Of a stretch of DNA of 64,000 nt, positions 42,067 to 64,000 are shown piece by piece (position 1 is the first letter of the stretch; the number at the start of each line of letters is the position of its first letter). The stretch is taken from the NCBI RefSeq assembly GCF_014356525.2, contig NC_052518.1:9888155-9952154 (forward strand), in the 5' to 3' direction. Origin of the DNA: Nilaparvata lugens (Eukaryota; Arthropoda; Insecta; Hemiptera; Delphacidae). Made by a program: the position numbers and the translations under genes. The notes under the pieces are model-generated. The model worked only from the letters and a program-made list of their open reading frames with translations. It searched no databases and was not told the origin of the DNA.

Positions 42067-42184
42067 TATATCACTCAAGAGGACATAATCCGCAGCAGAA
42101 AGATAAATAACGATTTTAATGTGTAATTATACAAACTTGAAACCATTCAATAGTGTAAAAAATAATAATTTATTTAATTTCTAG

Positions 42185-42873
42185 GAGGTCTCCAGCGAAT
42201 CGAGCAGGAATTCTATTTCAAGCAGCTCAGAAATGACAACATCCTCGACCTGAATAACCGTAATCGCGGGAGGATGGGTCGTTTAACTACGGCCGGAATC
42301 GCTGACTCAATGAACTTACTCGTTCGACGACAAATAAGTTTGATTGACTTTTTAAAAAGAGTCTCACATCAGACTGACTCATTGTTTGATGTTTTCAACC
42401 ACTCTCTACAAGCAAACGAGGGATTATTCGCGGAAGAACTGGAGGTTGACATCAGAGATGAGTGGATAACTCTAGACGTCGATGAGGAGGAGGACGAGGA
42501 AGAGGTGGTGGTTGTGGAAGAAGCTGCTGCCGTCCCAGCTGTTGCCGAGCCAGTCCCAGAAAGGTTGGTGCAACGAAGACCTCGCGGCCGTGGCCAATCG
42601 CGGGGTCGTCGTGGCCAGCAGCCAAGAGGTGCTCGTGGCCGATCTCGTCTTCAACAGTGTGGGCAAGGAATGAACAACCGGCACAATTTCGGCCGCTGCA
42701 CCATCTGTTTGGACCTCGAGTCAACCCATGCGGCGATTCCATGCAGTCACATCTGCATGTGCACTCGATGTGCTAATCTAAATAGACAACATAATCCACG
42801 GGACTTGAGATGCCCACTGTGCAATATTCCGAGCACGGAATACGTCAGAATGTGGGCATCGGATACTGTGTAG
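42185..42873 (+). CDS. RING-finger protein (probable E3 ubiquitin ligase), terminal exon
   Basis: Acceptor 'atttctag' precedes an open frame that runs 29 codons before ATG 42274 and on to TAG at 42871, so this is probably a last exon (phase 1) rather than a complete gene. Counting from that ATG there is a helical N-terminal part, an acidic stretch (about residues 60-80), an Arg/Gly-rich stretch (about 98-128) and a C-terminal C3HC4 RING: C142, C145, C157, H159, C163, C166, C180, C183. RING domains bind E2 enzymes to ubiquitinate substrates. The RG-rich part may bind RNA. AATAAA follows at 42967. The upstream exon was not found, and the substrate is unknown. Confidence 0.7.
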
Positions 42874-45508: not shown

Positions 45509-48055
45509 CAATATTAAAGCAGAAGTAAAGATAAATTATCAATCCCAGAAAACGTATTTGAAAATTTTATAATTGAAAGGTTGAACAATGAGAGAATAAA
45601 TTAAAACACTAAAGAGAACAGTTGACAAATTGAAAATATTTCATCAATACAGATACTTTAAAGACATCAAATTAAAAAAAAAACACATACTCATCATGTG
45701 TTCAGTTGATATACACATTCTTTTAGAAATTAAAAGTTATGGAATTCGCCAAACACTTGAATACTAATAGATACACACGTAAATACACATAGACAAACTA
45801 GTCTCACTTCAAATTTAATTTATTTGATTTAATAAATGATCAACACCAAATCCAATGAAATTTTACTCAAGTTGTAGCGTCGGATGGCACCATTCAGCTA
45901 GTAAGAACCAGAAGTCTTTATGTGGCCTATGAGTTGAGATATACAATCGAAAAACCATGGCACATAAAAGTTTGTCCCAAGGCAGAGTAGGCTAGATAAA
46001 AATTGTAGAAAAACAATATACAAAAAATGGTTCAAACATGTAACTATTACTTGAAATACAATTAATTTATTGAAAAAGATATTTTCTTGGCATTCTAAAA
46101 AAAGGCCTATTGGCCTAGATTGTAATAGAGGGTTCACCGGTATGGGTTGTAAGAAATATTTTTCACTTGTCCTGCTGAAAGTAGTCCTCTTATGAAGACT
46201 TTCCTGAATAATATTCTCACAATAAAATTTCTCCCAATAAATTTTTTGAGGAAACAATGATGATCCTAATTTTCCATAAATATTCTAGGCTACTGTTACT
46301 TCAATAACAGTAATAATAATGTTTCCACTATTATTATTTAGGTATGATCTGTTTATCTTTAAAAAATGGATTGCAAGTGGAAAATGATATGTGCAATTCA
46401 AAATGATACGTGCAATCCAGAATGATATGTGCAATCAAAAATTATACGTATGCAAAAATGATATGATTCAATGTGCACACTTCTTATAATTTGATTAAAA
46501 ATAAAATAATTATATGCTTCTTTCTTATTTTTTATGTTGATATTTTATAATAAACTTGACATTAATTTGTCTAATTTTATAAACAGTCATTTTGTTTCAT
46601 TTATTATCTTCTTTTCACAATGAAAGAAACTTGAAACATTCAATTCCACTTGAAGTTTCTTTCATTTTGAGAAGTTCCACAACATCAATATTTAGTCTAC
46701 TCTGAGAGTTTAAGCATTGACTATGGATGTAAGCATTGACTATGTATGATTGACTATGATTGACTTACATCCATAGTCAATGGTTTAAGTTATCTTATTT
46801 TCATTTTTTCCAATTTAAATTACACTACACAAATTAGTGTAGTTAGTGCATGCTGAGAGTTACTTTCTTGCTCTTAATGCTAGAATATCTTTCTGAACGG
46901 CCCAAAATGAGCACTGAACTTCTGTATATGACAACGAATTCCTGCCATTTAGTCCTAAATGAAGTTATCCTGCCCAGAGTTAAATTCGATCGCTAGGGTA
47001 ACCGACCAAATTTCATTCTCAGCGCAAGTGGACACGTGGACTATAGTGATCTGGACATTGCGGTCACCATCAAATTCAAGCAATGCAATTGTGCTATCAA
47101 TGCCATTGAGCTATTTTTTACAAATCCCATGACTGTTAGATTAGAGCATATTAGTATTATATTTTTGTTTCATCAACTCTTGTTTTTTGTAAACTCTACT
47201 GTAATCATTTAAACTATTTAGCCTATAGTTACAATTGAAGAATAAACATCAGTGTAGGGTGCTGTTTGAGGAAATGTTCAATCACATTTCTGAGGAAACT
47301 ATTAATTAATAGGTAGGCCTACCTAATAAATTACGGTAGGCCTACAGACTAACTCATAAAATGTTAATATATTTTATTGAAATTTCTAGGTTTTTAAAGT
47401 GCAGTTCAATAAATAACTCAACTGAGAAATGCAGTCTCATAAGTACCGGTAACCGAGAATTGTAGGGTACTATATCATGGAGATTATTTGATTTTTTTTA
47501 CAAATTTCGTTGTGCAAATTGTTTATTTCTCAGTAAATAAATAGTACAACCAGAAACATAGCTTCTGAAATATTCATAAAACTATGTAGGTAGGCTACTC
47601 TAAATCGATGTATTCTAGAAACACTTATCCAAATTTACTGAGGGAAGAAACTTGTGAGGAAATTTTTTAAGGCAGATTCCATCAAAGTCATTCTCTACAA
47701 TTATTTATGTTGTAGGTTTTAACCTAGGTTATAAGGAATGTCCATAAATATTCATTTCCAATTTCTATTTCTAATACGGTAACTCAATTCCATTGTCTTA
47801 CAGAACTTATATCGTAGGCTGTAGGATACCTGTCAACAGCTTTTTTCTGACTTAATAAAAACTATGATAGCAACAATAGACTACAATACTTGGAGTAAGG
47901 TAAAATCTAGTTGTGAAAAGTTACCTATATCAAATTGAATAATCATCAATCATTTACTGATTGATAAGATGCTTTTATGGTGGTTTTACCAAATCTAATA
48001 ACCTCATCCAAATTTAATAATACAGATCTAACCTCAAAATCACAAAATAACACAA
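45509..48055. other. AT-rich spacer with hairpins and a short minisatellite
   Basis: At 46379-46440, three imperfect copies of a unit of about 22 bp ('aatgatatgtgcaatccaga') occur. Hairpins lie at 46620-46670 ('tgaaagaaacttgaa' with its inverse) and 46712-46782 ('cattgactatggatgtaag' with its inverse). The minus-strand open frame at 45898-46257 has no recognisable family. Confidence 0.45.
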
Positions 48056-49145
48056 ATCTAATAAAAAGTATAACAAATAGTTAACCTTTAATAGCAGGTT
48101 TGAGTATAGCTTTGATACAAATATCTTCATAATGTCGAAAAATTCAAAATCACTCAACAAAATGGAAAGAAAGAACTTGAAGTGAATAATCACATCGTGG
48201 AGTTGTTGTTAAACCTAGGGCTGCTTGCCGACAACTGAAAATGATTTCTCCTCTCCACCAATGCCTCACACTGGCTGGGTACTCACCCAGAGTTGGCTGA
48301 GTAAGCACAAATAAATAAATGCTCTCTTTGTTCTTATTCTTCTTCCTAAATGTTAATACTTATTTGCCATATTATTAAAGAAAGGGATGTGAAATTTGAT
48401 TCATAATCAAAATTCGTTTCAACCCTGAAAGGTAGAAAAAAAGAAGACTTTTGGAAAATGAAGTCCCATGAAGAAGTTGAAACAGGAAGCTGACTGAGGC
48501 CGTTCAAGGAAAAGATGGGCAGATATGAGGTTCGGAACAGGCAGAGATGCCTAGACCCTGAAAGGTAGAAGAAAAAGAAAACTTTTTTCAGCTTCCCATG
48601 ATGAAGCTGAGATGGGAAGCAAGCTGACCGAGGCCGTCCAAGGAAAAGATGGGCAGATATGAGGCTTGCAACAGGCAGAGATGCCTAAACCCTGAAAGGT
48701 AGGAGAAGAAGAAGACTTTTGCAAAATGAAGTCCCATGAAGAAGCTGAAACTTATACGGACATTTGTTTATGGTCTTTGTTAACGCAGGGGGCATGCGAG
48801 CAAACTGAATCGTCGTTTCAACTGCACCTGACTGGATGAAATTTTTTAATTTGCTCAGCCATAGTTTGGAAAGCACATAAAATGGGAAGGCCACCTCTCT
48901 TCTTTTACGGGTTGCAGGGCTGTCATGTTTTCTGTAGCATTCATACAACATACATTTCAAACTTGATGATTGCAAGGACAACTATAATATAAATATATAG
49001 TAACTAGTGATTTCACTCCAAGGAGTTTTTTCTAGAAACTGTGAGTGAAAATTGTAAGAGAAGAATTCTTACATCTAATAATATAATTATATTTATTTCT
49101 CTCTTTTTTATTTATTTACAATGCAAATGAAACCAATGTTATCAC
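48056..49145 (+). repeat. LINE-derived minisatellite repeat, copy b
   Basis: This includes a 360-bp lead (48060-48420) that also precedes copy d at 61515, then three units (about 48430, 48558, 48690) with 'ggcagatatgaggttcggaa', and the common tail with 'gtctttgttaacgcaggggg' and 'gggttgcagggctgtcatg'. Open frames on the minus strand are artefacts of the repeat. Confidence 0.8.
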
Positions 49146-50090
49146 AGGCAGAGATTCCTAAACCCTGAAAGGTAGAAGAAGAAGAAGACTTTTGGAAAAT
49201 GGAGTCCCATAAAGAAGCTGAAACGGGAAGCTGACATAGGCTGTCCAATGAAAAGATGGGCAGATATGAGGTTCGGAACAGGCAGAGATGCTAGTCCCTG
49301 AAAGGTAGAAGAAGAAGACTTTTGGAAAATGTAGTCCCATGAAGAAGCTTAAACAGGAAGCTGACATAGGCTGTCCAAGGGAAAGTTAGGCAGATATGAG
49401 GTTTGGAACAGGCAGAGATGCCTAGACCCTGAAAGGTAGAAGAAGAAAAAGAAGACTTTTGGAAAATGGAGTCCCATAAAGAAGCTGAAACGGAAAGCTG
49501 ACGGAGGCCGTCCAAGGAGAAGTTGGGCAGATATGAGGTTTGGAACTGGTAGAGATGCCTAGACCCTGAAAGGTAGAAGAAGAAGACTTTTGCAAAATGA
49601 AGTCCCATGAAGAAGCTGAAACGGAAAGCTGACTGAGGCCGTCCAAGGAAAAGAGGGGCAGATATGAGGTTCGGAACATGCAGAGATGCCTAAACAATGA
49701 AAGGTAGAAGAAGAAGAAGCCTTTTGCAAAATAGAGTCCCATGAAACTTGTATGGACATTTGTTTATGGTCTTTGTAAACGCAGGGGGCATGTGAGCAAA
49801 CAAAATCGTCGTTTTAACTGCACCGGACTGGACGAAATTTTTCAATTTGCTCAGCCATAGTTTGGAAAGCGCATACAATGGGAAGGCCTCCTGTCTTCTT
49901 TCACGGGTTGCATGGCTGTCATGTTTTCTGTAGCATTCATACAACATACATTTCAAACTTGATGAGTGCAAGGACAACTTTAATATAAATATATAGTAAC
50001 TAGTTTTATTACTCCAAGGAGTTTTTTCTAGAAACTGTGAGTGAAAATTGTAAGAGGAAAATTCTTCCAGCTAATAATATAATAATTTTT
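49146..50090 (+). repeat. LINE-derived minisatellite repeat, copy c
   Basis: Five units begin near 49167, 49298, 49430, 49567 and 49703 (period 131-137 bp). The first retains the frame 'KRWADMRFGTGRDA'. The unit array is followed by the common tail to about 50090, where it is cut by the LINE and gypsy sequences. Confidence 0.85.
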
Positions 50091-50096
50091 TTCATT

Positions 50097-50862
50097 TTAA
50101 TTCATTTTCATTTTTTTCACACGATTTTGACGAGTCTATTACCAATGAGGAGAAAGCAGATTTTGAAATTAGTGAACTTAAATCAAAGCTTAGTTTCAAT
50201 ATGACATCAGTTGATGAATTAAAGACTGAAATTAGTTCCAAAGACGCGATAATCAATTTGTTGAGTAACGATGCGCAAAATGCTGCGGAAAAAATTTTAA
50301 AACTGGAAACTGAATTGAAATCTATGAGGAGGAATTCAATCGATTCACACATCACAAATCACATAATAATGACGATTTCATCACTCCGAGAACTACAGTT
50401 AGAGCTCGAAACAATGCAACTTGTGCTATTAAAATGAATAACAGATTTACAGTACTCTCAGAAAATATATCAACATCAACTTGCTCAAATAGGTCCACAT
50501 CCGATAAACTACTGGTCAAGGCGCAAATACATAGATCCACTACACCCGAAAATAAATCTTTCTCAAAACGCATAGTAGTCAACAATAGCTCCAACAAAAA
50601 GAAAAGGAGATTAACTATTATGGCAGATAGTCAAGGTAAACAATTGAGTGGATATCTGCAGCATCTCGATGATGACTTCGACGTCTTCGTTTACACCAAG
50701 CCAGGAGCCAAACTAAAGCATGTTGTTCAAGATGGGCTCGTTTTTGTTAGCGATTTTACTGAGGACGATTTTATCATCATATTAGCTGGCTCAAACGATC
50801 ATCACTTGGATGAACCTTATCAGCTAACCCTGTTTCAAGGAATAAGCGTTCATAAAAATTAA
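50097..50862 (+). pseudogene. LINE ORF1-like remnant: coiled coil plus SGNH-hydrolase-like segment
   Basis: The first part is heptad-rich ('ISELKSKLSF', 'LLSNDAQNAAEKILKLETEL'). A frame slip near 50355-50434 leads to 'MNNRFTVLSENIST' and then 'TIMADSQGKQLSGYL' and 'FIIILAGSNDHHL'. These match block I (DSxG) and block III (GxND) of SGNH/GDSL esterase-like domains found in some LINE ORF1 proteins. The domain is cut off after block III. It sits directly upstream of the gypsy pol remnant. Confidence 0.5.
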
Positions 50863-50865
50863 AGT

Positions 50866-52355
50866 AGAAAACTTCAGTTGGAAATTTCGATTTCATATTA
50901 GTGAAAATCTTTCAGCTCCAGTTATACTCGGTTGTGATTTTATACATCACACACAGTTAGTAATCGATTTATTCAACAAGAGGTATTATTTCAATTTTAG
51001 ACCACGATTCAAATTTTCCTTTGAAAGTAAAATAAATCCCGATTCATTGAAAATACAAATTGCAATTAGTTCAGACATGAGTGAAGATAATTTGAATGCT
51101 GAGCAACAGAGAAAATTGCAAAGAGTACTAGACAACTTTGATGATGTGCTCATTGATAAATTATTGGGAAAAACGAATTTAGTTGAATATAAAATTCGCC
51201 TTATATCAGAGGAACCGGTAAGAAAAGCTCCCTATCAAGAAGAAAATCAAGAAGATGCTCCAAGAGGGAATAATTGAGAAGTCGACTCCATGTTATTCTA
51301 GCCCAGCGTTTTTAGTATCAGAAAAGGGAGGAGGTGAACGTGTAGTCGTTGATTATCGTGCACTAAATAAGAAGATATCATTAGATTCTACTCCGCTGCC
51401 CAATCTGGATAACATATTCCACTGGTTCCATAATGCCGAGTATTTTTCGGTGTTAGATTAAAATCAAGCATATTATCAGATGCCCTTATCTGAGGAAAGT
51501 AAACATTTAACAACTTTCTGTACTCAGAGGAGAACCTATCAGTATACTAGAGTTCCGTTCGGTATAAGTATAGGTGCACAAGCCTTGACTTCCGTTCTAG
51601 ATACACTCTTTGAGGATATAAAATTCAAATTTGTTTTAAATTATCTTGATGATATAGTGATTTATTCAAAGGATTTTGAATCTCATTTAGTACACATTAA
51701 AGTTGTGTTATCAAAATTAAGAGAAGCCGGATTTACTGTGAAACCAGAAAAGACCAATTTTGCGAAGAAACAAATTTCATTTTTAGGAAATCTAGTTGAT
51801 CGAAATGGTATAACTATCGACCCTAACAGAACAAACTCCATCCGAGAATTTCCAAAACCCAAAAATGCCAAAGCTATAGCGAGATTCGTTGGTATGACTG
51901 GGTATTATCATAAATATATCCAAATCTATGCTGAAATCGCAGCCCCATTGAATGATTTGAGGAAGAAAAATGTCAAGTTTGTATGGGAAGTGATACATGA
52001 CAAGGCATTCCATCAATTGAAGTATGCAATCATGAACCCACCAGTATTGAAAACTGCCGATTTTTCAAAACAATTTGTATTGCAAGTAGACGGAAGCTGC
52101 AAAGCTGTAGCAGCTATACTCTCACAGGAAATTGATGGAGTATTAAAGCCCATTGCTTATGCATCTAAAAAACTAACTCAGCAAGAGTGTAAGTACTCAA
52201 CTTATGAAATTGAATGTTATGCTGCAATTTTCGGAATGGAAAGATTCAAACTTTACCTTCAACATGCAAAATTCCTATTATTAACCGATAACAGTGCACT
52301 ATCATGGATTCTACGACAGGACAAACAAATTGGTCGTTCAGGAAGATGGATACTT
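50866..52355 (+). pseudogene. Ty3/gypsy pol, 5' part: protease end, RT, most of RNase H
   Basis: From about 50866 the frame gives the protease C-terminus 'APVILGCDFIHHTQLVIDLF', then the RT: 'IIEKSTPCYSSPAFLVSEKG', 'VVVDYRALNK', 'VLD' (motif A), 'VPFGIS', the catalytic 'YLDD' at about 51643-51655 and 'SFLGNLV'. The RNase H follows ('FVLQVDGS', 'YEIEC', 'LLTDNSALSWIL'). An in-frame TAA after 'VLD' at 51459 and a frame slip near 51255-51277 disable it. No 5' LTR, primer-binding site or gag is visible. The frame is cut at 52355 within RNase H by the viral insert. Confidence 0.85.
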
Positions 52356-52384
52356 AATGAAGGGCTGGGCTCAACGGTTCCGTG

Positions 52385-54856
52385 ATGGGCACGAACCATT
52401 CCTACTTCGGCTATCTACCCCAGTTTTTAGGCTCTGCAGGTTATCAAGCCTGGTTGGAGGGCAATGCTCCGAATTGTCCGCTTAATGACGTAATCGGACG
52501 TGCATTGGTCGATCGCGTGGGTAGAGAGTACGTCATAGCGCAGGCACTACTCCACCAAGAGAACGCAGATGCAGACGGCATATTTGCCCAGCGATGGTTT
52601 GCTGTGGGGACACGTCACGGAGTAGCACATGGCAAACTCACAAAAACCGCAGGCCATTAATGTGTTAGTAAACATGAATGACAGTGCACAGTCGGGAGTG
52701 CTTATCAACGACCAAAGAGCGTACAATGTCCTGCACTATCTCAGTGGAGAAGTACAAACTGTGGAGTCTGTGTCCAAGTTCATGGACCATCTATCCGCCG
52801 ATTGGAGAGCACTCGGGATAAAGATAGCTCTGTATGACGATCTGCGAAGTAGGTCAATTTCTCAGCCTACCGGGGTGGAGTGGGCGTGGGCCCAAAAAGC
52901 AATGCCATTGAGAAACATCATAGATGGGGTTGACGATGATCTTTGGACGTTCAAGGCTATCTTCATCAGCGCTGACTACCTAGAGTCTTGTGTGCGATAC
53001 GGTGGCATCATCAACGTGGTACCCATTGACGGCGATGACAACGAAGATTGGTCAGTGTTTTCCCATGAGACACAATTGATTGGAATAGACGGTTGCACCT
53101 CTAGTGATATTCAGAAGGCGATATGGGTAACTTCTCATCTTACTTACCCTTTAATGCACGTCTTCGAAGAGTATGGGGTGGCTATTGCAACTGCTGGAGT
53201 GGCACCACTATGCTTTGAAAAGAATGCATCATGTGTTAGCATTCGCAACAACAGGAGGAAATTGGTGGTCGTCACAAACGCAAAGGTATCAGAGACTTTA
53301 CCTACGGGGTGCATCATTTCCTGATACAAATTGGACATAGACATGGTGCTCAGGCACCACCAGCTAACCGGCATGATGTTAACGACATGATCAAACTGAT
53401 GGCCCGGGATATGTTCAACCACCAACTCTCGCTGCGAGTTGAGTTTGACTGGGCATTTTCATCGATGTTCTCAGGTGGGGGCAATTGGTTAGAAGTGCAT
53501 ATGTTGGTGGCTGCATTAACGATTCGGTTCCCACCCAGAATCGAGGGCAGGATAGAGGTCAGGGACGGTAACGTCAGGAAGCGACACCAGGGTATAATAC
53601 CAGCAGCCCAGGAATTTCAACCGTGTATGGTACTGACACAGGATCCCATTGATATGACTGCCTTTGGCAAGGACAACTGTGTTAACTGCCTAGATATGGG
53701 AGTAGGAACGAGAGTGATCGCTGAGAACCACCCCGTCATCTATATAGGCGATTGGTCAAATGTGGCCGAAATAGCAGTCACTCTTAGGTTGGCTGTCTAT
53801 GATGTATACAATGTGGAAAATAGGCTCGACATAGAGCAGAGGAGGATCAATTGCGGACTAGACAGAATCCAGAGAGCTTGTTTCCTTCGCCGATCGGTCG
53901 AGAACTTCAAACGGGAGGCGGGAATAGTAGATGGTATAGTTCACCCCGCACTGGTCGACAACAACAGGATCCCTATTTGGCTTGACTGGATCCAGGGCAC
54001 AGGTGATGTCAAGGGTTTGCACGAGTATGTCAAGTGCTTTATCGGTGGTGGAAAAACGGACTTCAGCTGGGAAGTTAACATTAGGTGCGGAGTCCAGGCT
54101 ACTTGGACAGGAATTAGGACCACGTCAGATATGTGGATATCAGACCGCAATAAGAAAACCCAGGATATGGTGATAGAGAATTACGGCCTCAAGAGATACG
54201 ACATGCAGAATGACTGGAGACTAGGCCAATTCCATCAGGTAGTCGACAGGGTAGCTGTATCCTGTGAGCTTGAGCAGCACTTAATGCGGATAGATCTAGA
54301 GAATGCATTCGAGGATTTTAACCGTTGTGGTTGGCCTGGTGGTATCGAGAGGGCACATTCCGTCGCATGGGTAGTCCACAGGACATGCGCTGGTCTGACT
54401 GCAGCTAGACTTGGTTGGTCAGCAAAGTTAATCAACTTCCAGAATGCTCGAATCGCCTGGGGTTGGGGCCTAAGCTCGCTGATAAAAGATTGGGAGTATA
54501 TGGAAATGCAGTCCTTGGGGTTGAAGGATTCAGGATTTACCCTACTGTGTTCCAAGCAACTGGTCAACGGGTTATGGCTAGCAAGCCAGCCTGCGCCTGA
54601 TGCAGCGCCGACCATCTCGGCAAGCTACGTATACCGGCCAATGGGCCTCAAGGAACTGCCGACAAACCAGAGGCACAGACTGACTCTAGGAGCCGGTCAG
54701 CCTGTGCAGAAGGAGTCCGGTTCGGAAGAGACTGCCCAGCGTGTGGAGGAAGCAACACCAGCAGAACAGGAAGAAATTGCTCGTGCAGAGAACAGGATAG
54801 TGGCAGAAGCAGCCGTACAGGAAGAGATCGCCCAACCGGCTGTGATAAACGTGTAA
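52385..54856 (+). pseudogene. Totivirus-like capsid ORF (broken by two frameshifts)
   Basis: Three overlapping open segments (52385-52660, 52629-53324, 53309-54856) lie in frames 2, 3 and 2 of the window. This indicates one frame change between about 52629 and 52660 and a compensating one near 53309-53324. The total coding length is about 820 codons, normal for a totivirus coat protein. The C-terminal region is rich in Glu/Ala/Gln. Assignment rests on position and size, because capsids are poorly conserved in sequence. It cannot be translated as one protein in this copy. Confidence 0.65.
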
Positions 54857-57238
54857 ATAAGTTTTTATTGGACGAGAATTGGAATAGTGTGGTTTTCAAC
54901 GAGTTTGAGTCAGCACTACTCTCAGAGATCAGGGGAAAGACTTGTATTTGTAAGCATCCCAATGTATATAATAGTGATCAACCTAAATTTGTACAGTACC
55001 TATGAAGGTTCAATACCCGCTATGTTCAACGAATAATACCCAAAAGAGGGTTTTTAGAAGACAATTTTAACGTGTATCTATTTACTGCCAACCCTAATGA
55101 GGTTGCCGCGCTCGTTGAGGAATGGTATCGAAGGAAAGGACTCAGCCAAGATTTCTGCCTGTGCAGGTTGCGAGCATATTACAAAAAGGTTACGGGCCTC
55201 TATAAAAAGGGCGGCACCTACCTAACCCCACACTGGCGACTTTTTTGTTACTGGGAAAGTATGTTGGGATATCATCCATATGTGGGGTTAGACAATATGT
55301 GGGACAATACTTTGGACTGGCTACATAATAAACAGCCCATAGGTCAACGCATCGGTGAGGAGTACTATTGCCGGCTAATATACAATAAGATGATGTATAT
55401 AATAGATTCGTGGTGGCATGCCCCCAAGCAAATACTGTCGGCTGACGAATGGATAAAAACGGGTCAGTGGCTCCAAGGGAAGGCTGGCACTGGAGGAAAG
55501 ACAACTGTTGAGATTGCACATAAAACAAAGAGGAGTAAAGGAATGAAGGCTGTAGCAGGAGTGTACTACGACGATGACGACGTACTGTTGGATATGAACA
55601 AAGTAAGGCGAGAGACTATGGTCGTGATGGAAAAGAGCGAGCAGGGTAAGTCTCGTCCCGTCGTCAAATGCAGTGATCATTCAAACAGAATTATGAACTT
55701 CCTCTCGCAATGGGTTGAAAAAGGCTTTAAAGGATGTCCAGTATCATCGTTATTCATGACAGCACAGCAGAAGGAAGAATACAATATCAATATGGTAAAC
55801 CTGATGGAGTCAGCAGCAACTTACAAGGTCCCTCTAGATCAAGGATCGTTTGACAACATGCAAAGCAAAGACACGATACGAGCTATCTTTCGAGCGCTGC
55901 AGGATGGGATATACAAGCGTACCTCCAGCGCAGAGTTTAAACAGTATTTCGATACGTTGTACGATAGCATCTTTGGATTAGCTCCCATTGTCAAAGTTGG
56001 CGCCAGAGAAACGACTTGGGAAAACGGCGTGCCCAGCGGTTGGCGCTGGACCGCTCTTCTAGATACGATGCTAAACTTATGCAGCTTCCTTGTAATAGTG
56101 GATCTCGCAGAAGAAGAGAAAGGAGGTTCCATACAGTATGACAACCTCATAGCTCAAGGCAACGATATATTGTTTACAACCAACAATTACAGTGACGCGG
56201 TTCGCATTATTGAATGGTACGCTCACATCGGTTATGACGTCCACCCAGAGAAGACGTACATATCGCGTGTTCACGCAGAGTTTTTACGGAAATCCTACAA
56301 ACCTAATACCATTACCGGATACAGAGCCAGGAGTATGCTGTCCATCCTATATCGAAACCCTATCAAGGTACCTGAACTAATTAAGCCTATGAGGCTTTAC
56401 GGACGTATCTCAGTGTGGAGTCTGCTCATCCAGAGAGATGCAGACGCGGACAGAGTGGGGTCACTTATGATAGAGGATGCCAGGCAGGCAGGAGTGGACA
56501 AGGATAAAGCTCTAGGTTTCATGCTCCTCCCTGCAGCCTATGGAGGAGCAGGGGTACCCCATCAGAGCCAGCTAGGTAATAGATTGCATGCATACTGAAT
56601 GGGACGGTCGTTACTGGAGGCCATCGTGGATAGCCAAGCCGAATAAAACCAATATTCGACTGGGAAAATGGAGCAGCAGGTTAGCTAGGTATGAGATAGA
56701 GCTAAAAGGGAGCATAAAAACAGCATTCGAACAGAACCTACTACAGACTTGGGGCTACACACCTCAGCTACTAACCAAAGAGGTCCGTCTAGATTGGGAG
56801 GAAGTCGAAGTACGTGCGCAACTGCAAGTCTTCCATAATTACGACCCTGTGCCTGACCCGGACATCATCTGGAACATCGAGGGAGTGGCCGTTCAGGCTA
56901 TGCCATTTGTAAAACAACAGATCATCGAGGAGCAGCTGGAGGCCAAATTTGTTCACCCTCAGTTCATCGACTGGCTACTCAGTTACAAACGGAGAGTGAG
57001 TAAGGCTGTATACAGGCGCTATCTTCTCGGACAAGTCAACATCCCAGCACCAGCAACTGACCTACGATCAGCTCGTTTCGGTGCAAAGATAAAGAAAACG
57101 TGTCAGCACTGGTGTCACAGGCTCTTAAATACTAAGAACCTAACTTTGTCCGGTCTGGAGTCTGGGCTATATGCCCTAGAACTGTACTACTTGAAGCAAT
57201 ATCATATAAACTTCAAGGATCTGATCCTTGCCCCATGA
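54601..57238 (+). pseudogene. Totivirus-like RNA-dependent RNA polymerase (broken)
   Basis: The frame is open from 54601, overlapping the capsid ORF by about 250 nt in the -1 relation typical of totivirus capsid-polymerase fusions. Around 55654 'GKSRPVV' matches the basic motif before motif A. 'DQGSFDNMQS' (about 55838) is motif A, 'SGWRWTALLDTMLN' (about 56035) motif B, and 'QGNDI' (56155-56169) motif C. Breaks: TGA at 55003, a frame change near 56588-56598, and Asn in the second position of the usual GDD. The remaining 216 codons (56588-57238) are the C-terminal region. I see no canonical slippery heptamer in the overlap. Confidence 0.8.
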
Positions 57239-57290
57239 TTAATTCATGCCGTCCTGCGGGACAACAAGAACTCATCGATTTTTTTTTTTA

Positions 57291-58750
57291 GACTTCTAAT
57301 TAGACTTCTAGCATTCCAATTTGAAGTGAAACATATTCCTGGTCGTTTAAATGTGACCGCGGATTGCTTATGCAAGATGAGAGTGATATCGAAGAAGAAG
57401 AGAATGAAAATAAGGAAATTGAAAGTGAAAATGTATTGAATCTCGTGAATACATTGAGAATCACAGATTTCCCACTAGCGTTTACTGACATCAGAACACA
57501 TCAAGAAAATGGTCCTTTCATTCCTGACATAATGAAGAAAATTGCTAATAACCAAGATCAGTTTCCTTACAGTATTTCCAACGGAGTATTAGTAATAAAG
57601 ATTCGAAACCAAGAAAAGCTCAGAATTGTAGTACCCAAACTTCTAGTGCCACTGATATTTCGATACTATCATGACAGCATTCTTGGTGCACATCTTGGAA
57701 TTTCAAAAACTATCAACAGAATCTTTGAACATTTTTATTGGCCAGATATGAGGAAAGATATTCAATATCTAGTTAAATCATGTATAAAATGTGGTCAGAG
57801 TAAGTCTGCACAACAAACGAACTATGGATATCTTTCTTCCAAAATAGAGGAAGAACCATTAGCAATGTTACACATCGACACTGTTGGTCCATTGATACGT
57901 ACGACTCAAGGGAATATGTACATTTTCAGTTGTATTGATGTATTCTCGAAATTTTGTTGGTTGATTCCACTACGAAAAGCCAATTCAGAATCAGTGATAA
58001 AAGCATTGAAGTCAATTTTCATAAATTTTTCAACACCCAAGTGTATCATTTCCGATAATGCTTCAATATTCACGTCATCAAAATTCAAAAACTTTTGTTT
58101 CCAGCTTGGGATAAGACATAGTACTACAAGTCCATTCTACCCTAACCCGAATTTAGCTGAACATTTACATAGAAATATCTACGCAGTGCTCTGATAGCTT
58201 TTCATGCTACTAGTCAAAATAAATGGGACGAAAGTGTGACGTCATTTCTCCAACTCGCCTTTAATTTAGCTAAACATGACAAATTGCACATGCAATACAT
58301 GCAAACATGACAGTACAAATTGCACACCATTTTCATTGATGTATAGATTCAAGCCAAATCATCCACTGCTGAATGTGTGGCACATCAACGAAATCCTTCC
58401 AGATAATTTCAATGACGAAACTATGAAAGTTTGGAAAGATATGAAGGAACATTTGCTAAAAGCTCATCATAGGAGAAAACAAAATTATGATAAGACTAGA
58501 AAGGAAGTACCATTCCAAAAAGGAGACTTGGTTTGGCTCAAAACGCACATTTTAAGCGATGCTGTAAAGAAAATCTCTCACAAGTTAAGTTACCGTTGGG
58601 CCGGTCCTTACGTGATAATTCGTTGGCTGCGGAAGTGACAGTAGAGTTAGTCTACTTGATCCGGAAAACGATAGAATTTTACAGAAGGCACATGTATTCC
58701 AAATTAAGAAATACTATCCTAGAGAAGAAGAAGATAAGAACAAATGAATG
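57291..58750 (+). pseudogene. Ty3/gypsy pol, 3' part: RNase H end, integrase, GPY/F module
   Basis: Reading resumes with 'RLLAFQFEVKHIPGRLNVTA', the last RNase H motif, immediately after the viral insert. The 9-mer 'agacttcta' is present twice at the edge. The integrase follows: HHCC zinc finger ('HDSILGAHLG' and 'CIKCGQ', about 57669-57795), core D in 'LHIDTVGPL', D in 'IISDNASIF', and E in 'NLAEHLHRN'. A frame slip at about 58194-58290 precedes the C-terminal 'KLSYRWAGPYVIIRWL' (GPY/F module) and a last 'VFQIKKYYPREEED' segment ending near 58747. No 3' LTR could be defined. Confidence 0.85.
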
Positions 58751-59595
58751 AAGAGAAAATAGAAATGTAAAATGATAAATAGTAGAAATATAGTAAAATT
58801 CATTATCTTTTATGAAAGCTATGCAAGCTGAAGGCTTATAATGATTGACTTTCAAAATGGAAAATCACACAGGCAACATTTAGTAATTTCTTTGCAACGC
58901 AGCAGATAATATATATGTTACTTTACTATTTCTCATTGGCCGTGACAATGGAAAGTTCTATCGAAACAATAATCACTGCTGTTGAGAAATAATAAGTTGA
59001 TTTAATATGGTGAAGTGAACTATCTTTTGAAGTCGAATTATCTTCTTACCGATTAGTTTTGTCTCACATCAAATAATTAATGTATGTAAATATTAATGTA
59101 TATTATTATCAATATTCCGACTTATACAATCGGCAATATATGACTCAACAATCAGGCTAACTGATACTGTTTATGCTTTTTGTACTATGAGCATTTTGTT
59201 CTCTCTTCTGAAATCATGTTATAAGGAATATTGAAACTTATTGGATAAGATGTATAAATGAAAATAAACTTATGGTTTTGATTTTCCAGTAGAGGTATTT
59301 ATGTGAACGATTGATATGATTTTTTAATGATACTTTCTTACTGATAGTAGTATGACATTATTGAAGAAGTTTGTAATAATATTGTAGCAATCATGATTAG
59401 ATGTTTAATAATTAAAAAAAAAATGTTTTTGTACTCCTCGTGTTGTAGTTAATTAGTTAAGAACAGACGATAATTATTAATGATCATAATACGTATTATT
59501 ATTGTATGTTAACAGTTGTTATTGTATGTTAACTGATAACAGTTTAATAACTTCCTACAAAGGGAACACCCATACGAATAATATATTTGATTATT
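58751..59595. other. AT-rich spacer; possible gypsy 3' sequence
   Basis: This follows the gypsy pol end. A purine-rich stretch ('gaagagaaaatagaaatg') begins near 58749 and could be a polypurine tract. Because no 5' LTR copy exists upstream, an LTR cannot be verified. No gene is seen. Confidence 0.35.
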
Positions 59596-59599
59596 AAAA

Positions 59600-60595
59600 T
59601 TACCGTATTTTGCGTTCAATCTGATAGTAGTATGAAAAGTTGTAAGTCTTTATTATCATTTTTTGAACGGTGAATAGAGATGAAAGGTGAGAATTGAAAG
59701 TACCTCCCCAAATTACTAATCCGTATTGCAGTAGTGATTGAACTATAGTGAAGTAAATCATTCTCATTCTAGATACATTCAGTACAGACCTCAATTTATA
59801 GAATTTGTAAGATATAAATTTCAATCTATTGCAGATGTAATCAATATGCCTCTTCCACTTGAAGCCCTCCTCGATTATAACACCTAAGTATTTCAAGTGG
59901 CTGGTTTTCTCAATCTCGGGACAATTACATTCGTCTTGATCATTACTTACATTACAATTTAAATGCAATTTAAGTTGGCAGTGAGTTATCTCATGACCTG
60001 TAATACTCCTAGAGAATGCAATGTATTTAGTTTTTTTAATATTTAGGCTAAGGGAGTTTGGGAGTTTACGTCTAGCCATCTCTTAAGTGTGGAGATGCCT
60101 CTAGAGGCATTTCTATAAACGTCTCGCCAAGTTCCATCCCCAAACAACAGTACCGTGTCATCCGCAAAAGAATAAACTTCACCACCATTGAGGTCTAACT
60201 TTAGTATATCATTTACATATACCAAGAACAAAATTGGGGAGAGTACTGTCCCTTGGGGTAGGCCGTAACCAGTAAGTGGAATCTCACTAACACTGCTATT
60301 AAGTGATAAAACTTGTTTTCTATGTGAGAGGTAGCTTTCGAATAGTTTCAATGGGATTCCTCTAATACCTACCCTATCTAGCTTGATAAGTAATTGACTA
60401 TGACACACTGTGTCATAGGCTTTTGCCAAATCCAGGAAGACAGTCAGAGATTTTTGTCCTTTATTCAGAAAATCTGATACGGAATTTGAAAACTGTATTA
60501 GGACATCATCGGTACTTTTATAATTTTGGAAGCCAAATTTTGTTAAGTTTTTTTTAAAAGTTTTGTTAAGACAACGGTTTTCTAAAAAAATATTA
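59600..60595 (-). pseudogene. 5'-truncated LINE reverse transcriptase (CR1/Jockey-like)
   Basis: On the minus strand from about 60595: 'FGFQNYKSTDDVLIQFSNSV' (RT block 2), 'TVFLDLAKAYDTVCH' (motif A), 'GLPQGTVLSPILFLVYVNDI' (motif B) and 'SFADDTVLLF' (motif C, FADD). After a frame slip near 60043-60079 come 'LNIKKTKYIAFSR', 'HLKYLGVIIEEGFKWKRHID' and 'LLQYGLVIWGG'. The endonuclease and C-terminal end are missing. The catalytic residues are present but the frame is broken. Confidence 0.85.
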
Positions 60596-61510
60596 AATTA
60601 ATTTATAAGTTATTGATAATCAGTATTAAGGAAACCCTATTACTAATTATTCGGTATTCTCATCTAATGGAATGAATTCAGGAAAAATTAAATCAAACAC
60701 CATGAATGTTTAGAAATTCATTATTAAAAAAAAAGGATTACCACTTCACAAAGTTCCATATACATGACAATATCCTTATTCTAAATTGATGATGGGCCCA
60801 TATATTTGTTTAATAACAATTCGTCTTTCACGAATCTCAATGCCGGAAAATATAATTTGATCGTCACATTACCTCGGTACCGAGTTACGTCGCAGAGTAT
60901 TTTATAATGATGCTCCATAATTGCATAAAAGAAAACACAGCTTGGCAATTATCTCTTATCCTCCATATCCGCTTTAACCTGTTCCTCGTATGATGCACTT
61001 GGAGTTCCTTGTCTCCTATTCATAATATTTTTGGATTGATTTGGTATCAACAAGGATCGTTCTTCCATAGTCAGTCGTAAATTAGTTTGCCACAAACATG
61101 GACCGCTGTGGAATAGAACAGCCAAGAATAATTTCTAATTCGAACTTAATACTTATCTTTCCAAAAAGAACAATTCAATTATTACATTAGTGTGAACGAT
61201 TTTCTCAAATACATTCAGACTTTAACCCTTTGAATTGTAACGTAGTCTAAATATACACTCTACTTTTACTTTAAGTTAATAATACAGTTATAAAGTTTAA
61301 GAAAACTTTTGATAATTACTTTTCCCAATGAACTAATATGACATAATATTTATCAAAACAATTTAATAATAACATTTCTATTTTACTTGAGTGAATTACT
61401 TGTGAAGTTAGTTAACTCTGAGAATGAACAAGAATTTAAATATCAATTTCGCACATAATCTATCAATCTGCTCTAATGAAAGTAACAATGAAAAGTACAT
61501 GAAATATAAT
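60596..61510. other. AT-rich spacer
   Basis: No recognisable gene or repeat. Confidence 0.4.
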
Positions 61511-62580
61511 AAAAAAGTATAACAAATAGTTTATCTTTAATAGCGGGTTTGAGTATAGCTTTGATACAAATATCTTCATAATGTCGAAAAATTCAAAATC
61601 ACTCAACAAAATGGAAAGAAAGAACTTGAAGTGAATAATCACATCGTGGAGCTGTTGTTAAACCTAGGGCTGCTTGCCGGCAACTGAATAAGGAGAAAAT
61701 GATTTCTCCCTTCTACCAATGCCTCACACTGGCTGGGTACTCACCCAGAGTTGGCTAAGTAAGCACAAATAAATAAATGCTCTCTTTGTTCTTATTCTTC
61801 TTCCTAAATTTAATACTTATTTGCCATATTATAAAAGAAAGGGATATGAAATTTGATTCATAATCAAAATTCGTTTCAAACCTGAAAGGTAGAAAAAGAA
61901 GAAGACTTTTGGAAAATGAAGTCCCATGAAGAAGTTGAAACAGGAAGCTGACTGAGGCCGTTGAAGGAAAAAATGGGTAGATATGAGGTTAGGAACAGGC
62001 AGAGATGCCTAAACCCTGAAAGGTAGAAGAAGAAGAAGACTTTTGGAGAATGGAGTCCCATAAAGAAGCTGAACCGGGAAGCTGACCGAGGCCGTCCAAG
62101 GAAAAGATGGGCAGATATGAGGTTCGGAACAGGCAGAGATGCCTAAACCCTGAAAGATAGAAGAAGAAGAAGATTTTTGCAAAATTAAGACCCATGAAGA
62201 AACTGAAACTTGTACGGACATTTGTTTATGGTCTTTGTAAACGCAGGGGGCATTCGAGCAAACAAAATCGTCGTTTTAACTGCACCGGACTGGAAGAAAT
62301 TTTTTAATTTGCTCAGCCATAGTTTGGAAAGCGCATACAATGGGAAGGCCTCCTCTCTTCTTTCACGGGTTGCAGGGCTGTCATGTTTTCTGAAGCATTC
62401 ATACAACATACATTTCAAACTTGATAAGTGCAAGGACAACTTCAATATAAATATACAGTAACTAGTGATTTTACTACAAGGAGTTTTTTTCTAGAAACTG
62501 AGTGAAAACTGTAAGAGGAAAATTCTTACACCTAATAATATAATAATTATTTTTTTATCTATTTTATTTTTTTACAATGC
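61511..62580 (+). repeat. LINE-derived minisatellite repeat, copy d
   Basis: The 360-bp lead (from 61515) matches 48062 onward. Three units follow (about 61885, 62020, 62150), then the common tail with 'tttgtttatggtctttgtaa' and 'cttaca(c/t)ctaataatata'. It has the same orientation as copies b and c. Confidence 0.85.
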
Positions 62581-64000
62581 AAATGACACCAATGTGTTAA
62601 CATTGGAAGATAAAATAATAAGATAGTCCTTGTGCTATTTCTCTTCCAAATTTATAGGGGACAAAGTCCAAGATAAGGTTAGAATTTCATGTGAACAATT
62701 TTTACAATATTTTAGTCCTAAATAAACATGAAAACTATAAACTTTGAATTTTGATGGCTTGAATTAACAAATTTATTGGATATATCCCACTCTTACCACT
62801 TGTAACGAAAAATATGGAGTTATTTAAGAAAATTTGGAACCATTCAAGAAACACAAACTTGTAAACACTGAAGCTCAGCTGAAATTTTATATACTTATCA
62901 TCATTTTTCCAGTGAATTCACCATGATGAAAATTAGAATTTTCACACCATGGGTGTTGAAACATGTTTGTAACTTTTAAATAAATTTGTGATATTTTTAA
63001 ACAATATTCCAGTGATTTTCATAGATCATTATATCTCACCAAAAACATTATCTGAAATCTGAAATTGTATTTATTCTTATTGTATAACAGTGAACTACAA
63101 CAGCTATATGTTAATAGTATGGAGAATGGTCTTCACATGATCTAATGCCTATGATTGAGAAGCGATTTCCTATGATAAAGTGTAGCATTGGAAGACCATT
63201 AACATGAAATTATTATACTGTACATGCTAAAATTGAAGCATACTGATGAGAAACTTCAACTGGCTTTAAACTCTGGAGTCAGAAAATTGGCTTTCCGAGT
63301 CAGAGCGTTAACGTAGTTGAGGACTTAAATAGACTCTGGAGTTTAGAGATCACGTTAGACCCTTGAGTTTATAATTTCGCTTTCTGAGTGAAGGGCTTAT
63401 AAGTCCAGGAATTGAATTAGATTCTCGCCTCTTTCCGAGTTGAGGATTTATCAAAAATCGTTAAGTCCAGGACTTGAAACAGCGTGATATTAATACCTCG
63501 ACTGGGGTAGGGTTTGAATTTAAGTTCTAGACTTAACTGAACAAACACAATTCATTTATTGTTTTGGAGTAGATGAAAAGCCAAATAGATGTCATGGAAT
63601 ACCTAAATTATTTGGATTAGTCCATCTAAATTCATAATTTATAGTTTGCAAATTTATTTTGGAATAAAATTGTATAAGATTTATGCTTAAAAAACTAACC
63701 TTATTTCACATACCGCTGTCACATAACCTAGAAATGTTCAAGAAAAATAATACAAGGATTGCCTTGGAATTTATATTCCAATCTGAATGTTATTAATTAA
63801 TGTCATATTCAACATATTAATAATAACAATATAACAATTATAAATTATTATTACATTTTTTTCAAAAAAAATACGTTTTCAAACTCAATAGTCTAATGAA
63901 ATTTTTATTCCAAAATCACTGGTTAGTATCAATGATAGCATAACGTAAAATGAAATGTTTATTCATTCATCTTTCAAAATGTTAGATTTTGCTTTGAATA
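62581..64000. other. Spacer; 'gagtccaggactt' cluster and inverted end segment
   Basis: 63260-63540 holds several diverged repeats of 'gag(t/g)...aggactt(a/g)aa' related to 35045-35165. The final 110 bases (about 63890-64000) are the approximate reverse complement of 35325-35425. No gene is recognised. Confidence 0.5.

Follow-up and report, generated by a model that had tools for sequence, protein, structure and literature searches.

How RNA viruses that encode no reverse transcriptase come to be inherited as DNA tends to be judged simply by how near they lie to retroelements, and a stretch of 64,000 nucleotides from Nilaparvata lugens (hereafter the window; C15:9888155-9952154 in a 1.085-Gb assembly, contig NC_052518.1) bears on this question. 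Here, a contiguous insert of 4,943 bp (positions 52357-57299 of the window, plus strand), made up of totivirus-like sequence plus junction filler, lies in sense orientation within the RNase H region of a Ty3/gypsy pol gene, with reverse transcriptase (RT) and RNase H to its left and integrase to its right, all on the plus strand. The initial annotation, made from the sequence alone, had placed a totivirus-like block in this orientation inside gypsy RNase H/pol; Pfam domain order, strand and empty sites bear this out, and the boundary given as 52356..57290 is sharpened to 52357-57299. By what route did the viral sequence arrive? We consider it probable that this 4.9-kb lebotivirus/totivirus-like segment derives from RNA copied from its 3′ end by an RT of retroelement type, the cDNA then being sealed into a chromosomal break in a gypsy copy.

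Genome matches to the left flank of the insert, counted at a minimum of 89% identity with at least 110 of 156 bases covered, numbered 16: the window itself, ten uninterrupted copies, two with another insert, two (C8) abutting by coordinates only, and one partial match. All ten of the other gypsy copies that were read across the site are uninterrupted and have the form GGATAC(T/A)TAGA(C/T)TTC. The window site is split as ...GGATACTTA, then the insert, then TTAGACTTC..., so that TTA stands at either junction and gypsy has lost no base. The insert ends in the 12 bases TTAGACTTCTAA, 11 of which repeat the adjacent target, and they overlap by two bases with a run of eleven T residues (T11). The viral 3′ untranslated region (UTR) of a tandem array of related copies on C15 ends in a comparable GATTT, suggesting that the T-run was extended from the true viral 3′ end. 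In the two gypsy copies with a different insert (C15:9.957 Mb and C1538) this is about 100 bp long, lies four bases upstream of the viral site and has GATA on both sides; the C15 copy with this unrelated insert is located about 5.6 kb past the end of the window, and C1538 is its match.

Because the empty site is exact, the TTA repeat short and the filler templated by the target, and because of the T11 run, break repair is favoured over a simple template switch by gypsy. In the proposed sequence of events, an RT presumably belonging to a retroelement would copy the viral RNA from its 3′ end, the cDNA would enter a break in the chromosomal gypsy copy, and polymerase-theta-like end joining would be the putative sealing step. 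Several points weigh against break repair: sense orientation is only a 50% event, the T11 run lacks a unique explanation, the 3-bp TTA repeat can be read as microhomology or as a target duplication of very short length, and a hybrid on C7, described below, shows that template switching by a long terminal repeat (LTR) element can also place virus in sense within a retroelement. The junctions also bear on target-primed reverse transcription, in which the enzyme of a long interspersed nuclear element (LINE) would have started from a nicked site in gypsy. This could leave a 5′ truncation with the 3′ terminus kept, and AA could have primed against the U-run at the viral 3′ end; an open reading frame (ORF) of LINE appearance with an RVT_1 domain is present in the window at 60043-60597. 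However, neither a longer target-site duplication nor a poly(A) or LINE-type tail was found at the insert, only TTA, the sole possible target duplication, and the T11 run; 11 bases of the filler are templated, and to our knowledge no recognisable endonuclease site stands at the junction. We regard the LINE route as decidedly improbable.

The insert encodes a totivirus-like capsid protein (CP) and an RNA-dependent RNA polymerase (RdRp), the latter in the -1 frame relative to CP in the ORF list, as the initial annotation had claimed when it described a -1 frame overlapping the capsid. The CP pieces match the coat protein (P0034) of N. lugens toti-like virus 1 (NlToLV1) at 65-70%, in a capsid protein search that gave one match among 7,996 candidates scored. 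The RdRp pieces match P0001, a virus relative of 780 residues from assembled public data that may be NlToLV1 itself, at 78% (55006-56595) and 81% (56576-57235), and the former piece also matches Pfam RdRP_4 (E 1e-13). The best matches of the block are viral (P0001, P0034) and not a cellular gene family, consistent with the origin first proposed for the block. A search of solved structures with the RdRp and CP sequences gave no match, and IMG/VR viral contigs gave two pattern matches, neither confirmed as a relative. More distant RdRp homologues with 37-39% identity, including Hubei toti-like virus 19 and Solenopsis midden virus, group near the clade of the window. These named outer homologues belong to Lebotiviridae, a family with which the NCBI placement of NlToLV1 in unclassified Orthototiviridae does not fit well; they are exogenous viruses known from contigs of 6.8-7.2 kb, whereas the window copy is endogenous. 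The G+C content of the insert is 0.477, against 0.344 and 0.323 in the gypsy flanks. With CP and RdRp homologous to a totivirus-like virus, contiguity with host DNA at the level of the assembly and an identifiable empty site, the insert is a non-retroviral endogenous viral element of the Ghabrivirales. Elsewhere, a predicted protein of Scirpophaga incertulas (P0028, on a 194-kb contig) joins a totivirus-like polymerase with PF05485, which we take to be THAP, and possibly represents a domesticated or fused element in this moth.

The viral segment is truncated and both genes are broken. CP homology begins at residue 627 of 1460, so that the segment lacks the 5′ UTR and some 1.9 kb of the CP gene; given a length of 7037 nt for NlToLV1 (PMC10636211), about 70% of the viral genome is present and about 30% has been truncated. 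Therefore, the block is not near-complete or almost full-length as first described, and it does not open with a leader, whereas the short 3′ end of that description is present, with the viral 3′ end retained as a stop codon (57236-57238) followed by a 3′ UTR to 57278. This UTR resembles those of the C15 array copies in length (counted by eye) and in a short CCGTCC...GGAC stretch. CP carries two frame changes, and RdRp is interrupted by a premature stop (55003-55005), changes frame once and reads GND instead of the catalytic GDD. No XXXYYYZ slippery heptamer of the classic type was found in the CP/RdRp overlap (54590-54860). We infer that the locus has little or no present function beyond possible production of Piwi-interacting RNA (piRNA). 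The inactivating lesions in both genes, with GDD changed to GND, also speak against an assembly chimera of a contaminating virus with gypsy, as do the target-derived filler and the diverged sister copies elsewhere in the assembly; although the relative P0001 was itself assembled from public sequence data, such an artefact is very improbable. The features of the insert and its host element are collected in Table 1.

Table 1. Features of the viral insert and the surrounding gypsy copy (positions in the window).
Feature	Position	Strand	Evidence
Gypsy pol, 5′ side (protease/RT/RNase H)	50833..52356	+	Pfam RVT_1, RT_RNaseH; 98.5-98.6% to C2222 copy
Whole insert	52357..57299	+	Not present in 10 gypsy copies read across the site
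Capsid piece 1	52361..52657	+	65% to P0034 residues 627-722 (96 aa)
Capsid piece 2, in a different frame (frame lesion)	52626..53321	+	68% to P0034 716-942
Capsid piece 3, reaching CP C-terminus	53240..54853	+	70% to P0034 940-1458
RdRp N-terminal piece, -1 frame relative to CP	54895..55002	+	ORF 54601-55005 compared by eye with P0001
RdRp core, motif C GND, not GDD	55006..56595	+	78% to P0001; Pfam RdRP_4
RdRp C-terminal piece, shifted frame	56576..57235	+	81% to P0001 565-780
Viral stop and 3′ UTR with small hairpin	57236..57278	+	Resembles C15 array 3′ UTR; fold
T11 run, viral 3′ end	57279..57289	+	
Filler TTAGACTTCTAA	57288..57299	+	11 bases copied from adjacent gypsy target
Gypsy pol, 3′ side (RNase H end, then integrase)	57300..58640	+	Integrase_H2C2, rve; weak SH3_Tf2-1 below cut-off
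Gypsy 3′ non-coding part, common to other copies	58641..59517	+	

The order RT, RNase H, integrase on one strand identifies the host element as Ty3/gypsy. It is 5′-truncated at 50833 relative to other copies and is a fragment in which neither flanking LTRs nor a target-site duplication were found. An LTR pair taken from a C12 copy (932 bp, 97.7%) has no match on the strand of the window gypsy. Repeats lying at 48063-50092 and 61512-62602 have the look of its LTRs but were rejected as such; the C12 LTR matches 48086-48421 and 60556-61878, on the opposite strand only. The reading of C2222 as a haplotig that carries the empty site at this position was likewise rejected: C2222 is 96-99% close, but the outer flanks of the window (47000-50832 and 59646-63500) have no match in it. 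Upstream of the truncated gypsy, an ORF at 50314-50862 appears SGNH-hydrolase-like by eye, a type seen in some transposons, and the gypsy match starts abruptly near the end of this ORF. A second ORF of 231 amino acids (42178-42873), with a RING-finger-like C-terminus by eye, lies in a G+C-richer stretch.

A structure of a different kind is present on C7 (51747979-51759562), where a related virus lies in sense orientation between the LTRs of an env-bearing retroelement, in the order LTR, presumed primer-binding site (PBS), virus, env, polypurine tract, LTR. The two LTRs, each 1286 bp long, have four differences between them, and the element is bounded by TTAT at either end. TAATTTGGTGTCAGGTGT comes next to the 5′ LTR, an arrangement also seen in another copy on C9, and viral sequence starts directly after it; TGGTGTCAGGTGT is the presumed PBS, assigned by its position. 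The viral part comprises the C-terminal 135 residues of the capsid, a remnant with one stop, and the polymerase to residue 777 of 780, which continues in frame into a Baculo_F-domain protein (PF12259, E 6e-9) in an open frame of 1441 residues. The virus/env junction falls within bases common to both (AAGGA...), and a purine-rich tract stands before the 3′ LTR. A 661-base stretch of env has at least 40 genome matches, and 20 among the matches listed, C7 included, reach at least 96% over all 661 bases, which makes env part of a multi-copy element; in another env copy (L059) an integrase end is followed by an open env frame. No RdRp-env fusion was seen among eight matches in the protein collection (7,991 candidates sharing most words scored). 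With an LTR-bounded unit, a presumed PBS, a polypurine tract and an integrase-type target-site duplication, the C7 locus finds its best explanation in a template switch within a retroelement, after which integrase would have inserted the hybrid. A specific mechanism of capture, as suggested in the initial annotation, is not shown for the window, where filler and an exact empty site have the look of break repair; it is C7 that has the structure expected of retroelement capture.

The surroundings of other viral copies were screened for retroelements, using ORFs of at least 75 amino acids plus the window gypsy, for 8 of about 17 clusters. LTR-element-like sequence adjoins five of the eight clusters with flanks in hand, in all five on the same strand as the virus. 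A tandem array on C15 (6410920-6430039; 6.41-6.43 Mb) consists of polymerase-bearing units spaced at 2948 bp, five of which contain a 99-base piece downstream of the viral 3′ end; among the matches listed (40 of 466 candidates scored) this piece occurs at 35 places outside the array at 97-99% identity, and it weakly resembles the zinc domain of an integrase (E 0.058). A second array, on C2 (96090510-96110730; 96.09-96.11 Mb), is built of polymerase 3′ halves, and its low-end unit is followed by a gypsy RT-like fragment and a LINE-like RT. The gypsy RT-like fragment comprises about 60 residues and lies on the strand of the virus (E 1e-9 to the window RT; weak in Pfam, E 0.053). On C2222 and C1651, which are 95-97% alike over the stretch concerned, a gypsy copy from the same family as the one in the window is followed downstream, within about 1 kb, by a divergent totivirus fragment. 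The downstream flanks at C1:28.37, C5:59.25 and C3:67.08 Mb gave no LTR-element match in this limited ORF screen, and the upstream stretches fetched there are still mostly viral. The apparent clustering of viral copies with retroelements is a lead and not a statistical test. ORFs for piggyBac-type transposases (PF13843) were noted near four viral clusters (L044, L047, L048, L052).

Could the window insert have arisen in the same way as C7? In that case, a virus-like particle would have packaged viral RNA together with the gypsy RNA, gypsy RT would have moved from the latter to the former and back again, and the LTRs would have served to integrate the chimera. The sense orientation of the viral block fits such a switch, as do the related virus between LTRs with PBS-like and purine-rich tracts and a target-site duplication at C7, and the short same-strand retroelement-like fragments downstream of virus in the C15 and C2 arrays. 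However, the return would have to land on the exact base of departure without loss of gypsy sequence, and the filler repeats the target and not a simple homology between templates. Furthermore, an LTR-bounded chimera cannot be demonstrated at the window, where the gypsy is truncated at 50833 and the C12 LTR has no match on its strand. We therefore consider a template switch unlikely as the origin of the window insert, though less so than the LINE route. That an LTR-element RT can copy an RNA virus into DNA through template switching is known from arenavirus-IAP (intracisternal A particle) recombination in the mouse, which works like the C7 locus; it is an experimental somatic event in a mammal, however, and the window has no such LTR-bounded structure. 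More broadly, env-bearing and gypsy-type LTR retroelements of this planthopper might repeatedly take up lebotivirus/totivirus-like RNA, switch templates and integrate heritable hybrids, C7 being a young hybrid with an F-type envelope and the window a second capture; we put this forward tentatively, as an idea with somewhat less than even prospects.

To what extent the viral copies share a history was assessed for the window, the C15 array and C7. The genome contains 54 matches to an RdRp piece and 17 to the main capsid piece (piece 3), in about 17 clusters by our grouping. The only full-length match to capsid piece 3 is that of the window. A mobilised virus-gypsy chimera was rejected, as no second full CP copy occurs among the 17 matches, and the chimera does not appear to have multiplied. 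Between the window and the C15 array RdRp (526 codons), silent sites are saturated (proportion of synonymous differences, pS, 0.95, with a range of 0.94-0.98) and the nonsynonymous distance (dN) is 0.09; against the C7 RdRp, where silent divergence is saturated as well, dN is 0.13. Saturated silent sites combined with a conserved protein indicate that the copies diverged under purifying selection while the viruses were still replicating, and those of the window, the C15 array and C7 accordingly represent separate entries. Within the C15 array, the pairs of units compared are about 1% apart, and duplication produced the array at a later time. In the tree, P0001 and C7 are sisters (support 0.997); successively deeper nodes add the C15 array (0.862) and the window (1.000), so that P0001 nests among endogenous copies.

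Endogenous toti-like elements in N. lugens and LTR-associated RNA-virus integrations in Aedes have already been published (PMC10636211, PMC5497376). Huang et al. (2023; PMC10636211) list 22 such elements for this species, which vary across the 256 individuals studied, and state that piRNA-like small RNAs arise from most of the planthopper elements (ToEVEs). These N. lugens elements (NlToEVEs) belong to the same clade, being closest to NlToLV1, and have CP and RdRp with broken frames on several chromosomes, some copies carrying both genes; the main text of that report is without the words "gypsy" or "LTR" and mentions piggyBac near NlToEVE3-5, and we could not match the window to any numbered NlToEVE described there. 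In Aedes, integrated RNA viruses are enriched near Ty3_gypsy elements, and AeBunya1 lies inside a Pao-Bel element (Palatini et al. 2017, PMC5497376). Like the window, these loci have non-retroviral RNA virus sequence near or embedded in an LTR retrotransposon, but they concern other virus groups, and the parts of that report consulted give neither a base-exact empty site nor an LTR-PBS-virus-env-LTR structure. In the open-access literature searched (title or start of abstract), we found no published report of such an LTR-bounded totivirus hybrid. The window insert is a well-resolved example of an already known type, and the added interest comes from its clean insertion site and from the C7 hybrid.

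It is likely that jumping genes help to capture such viruses. A single genome here holds two base-level records: the window, with its exact empty site and repair-like filler, and C7, with its LTRs, presumed PBS, switch-like junction and integrase-type duplication. Together they make capture directly testable in a pest insect in which toti-like elements vary between individuals (PMC10636211).

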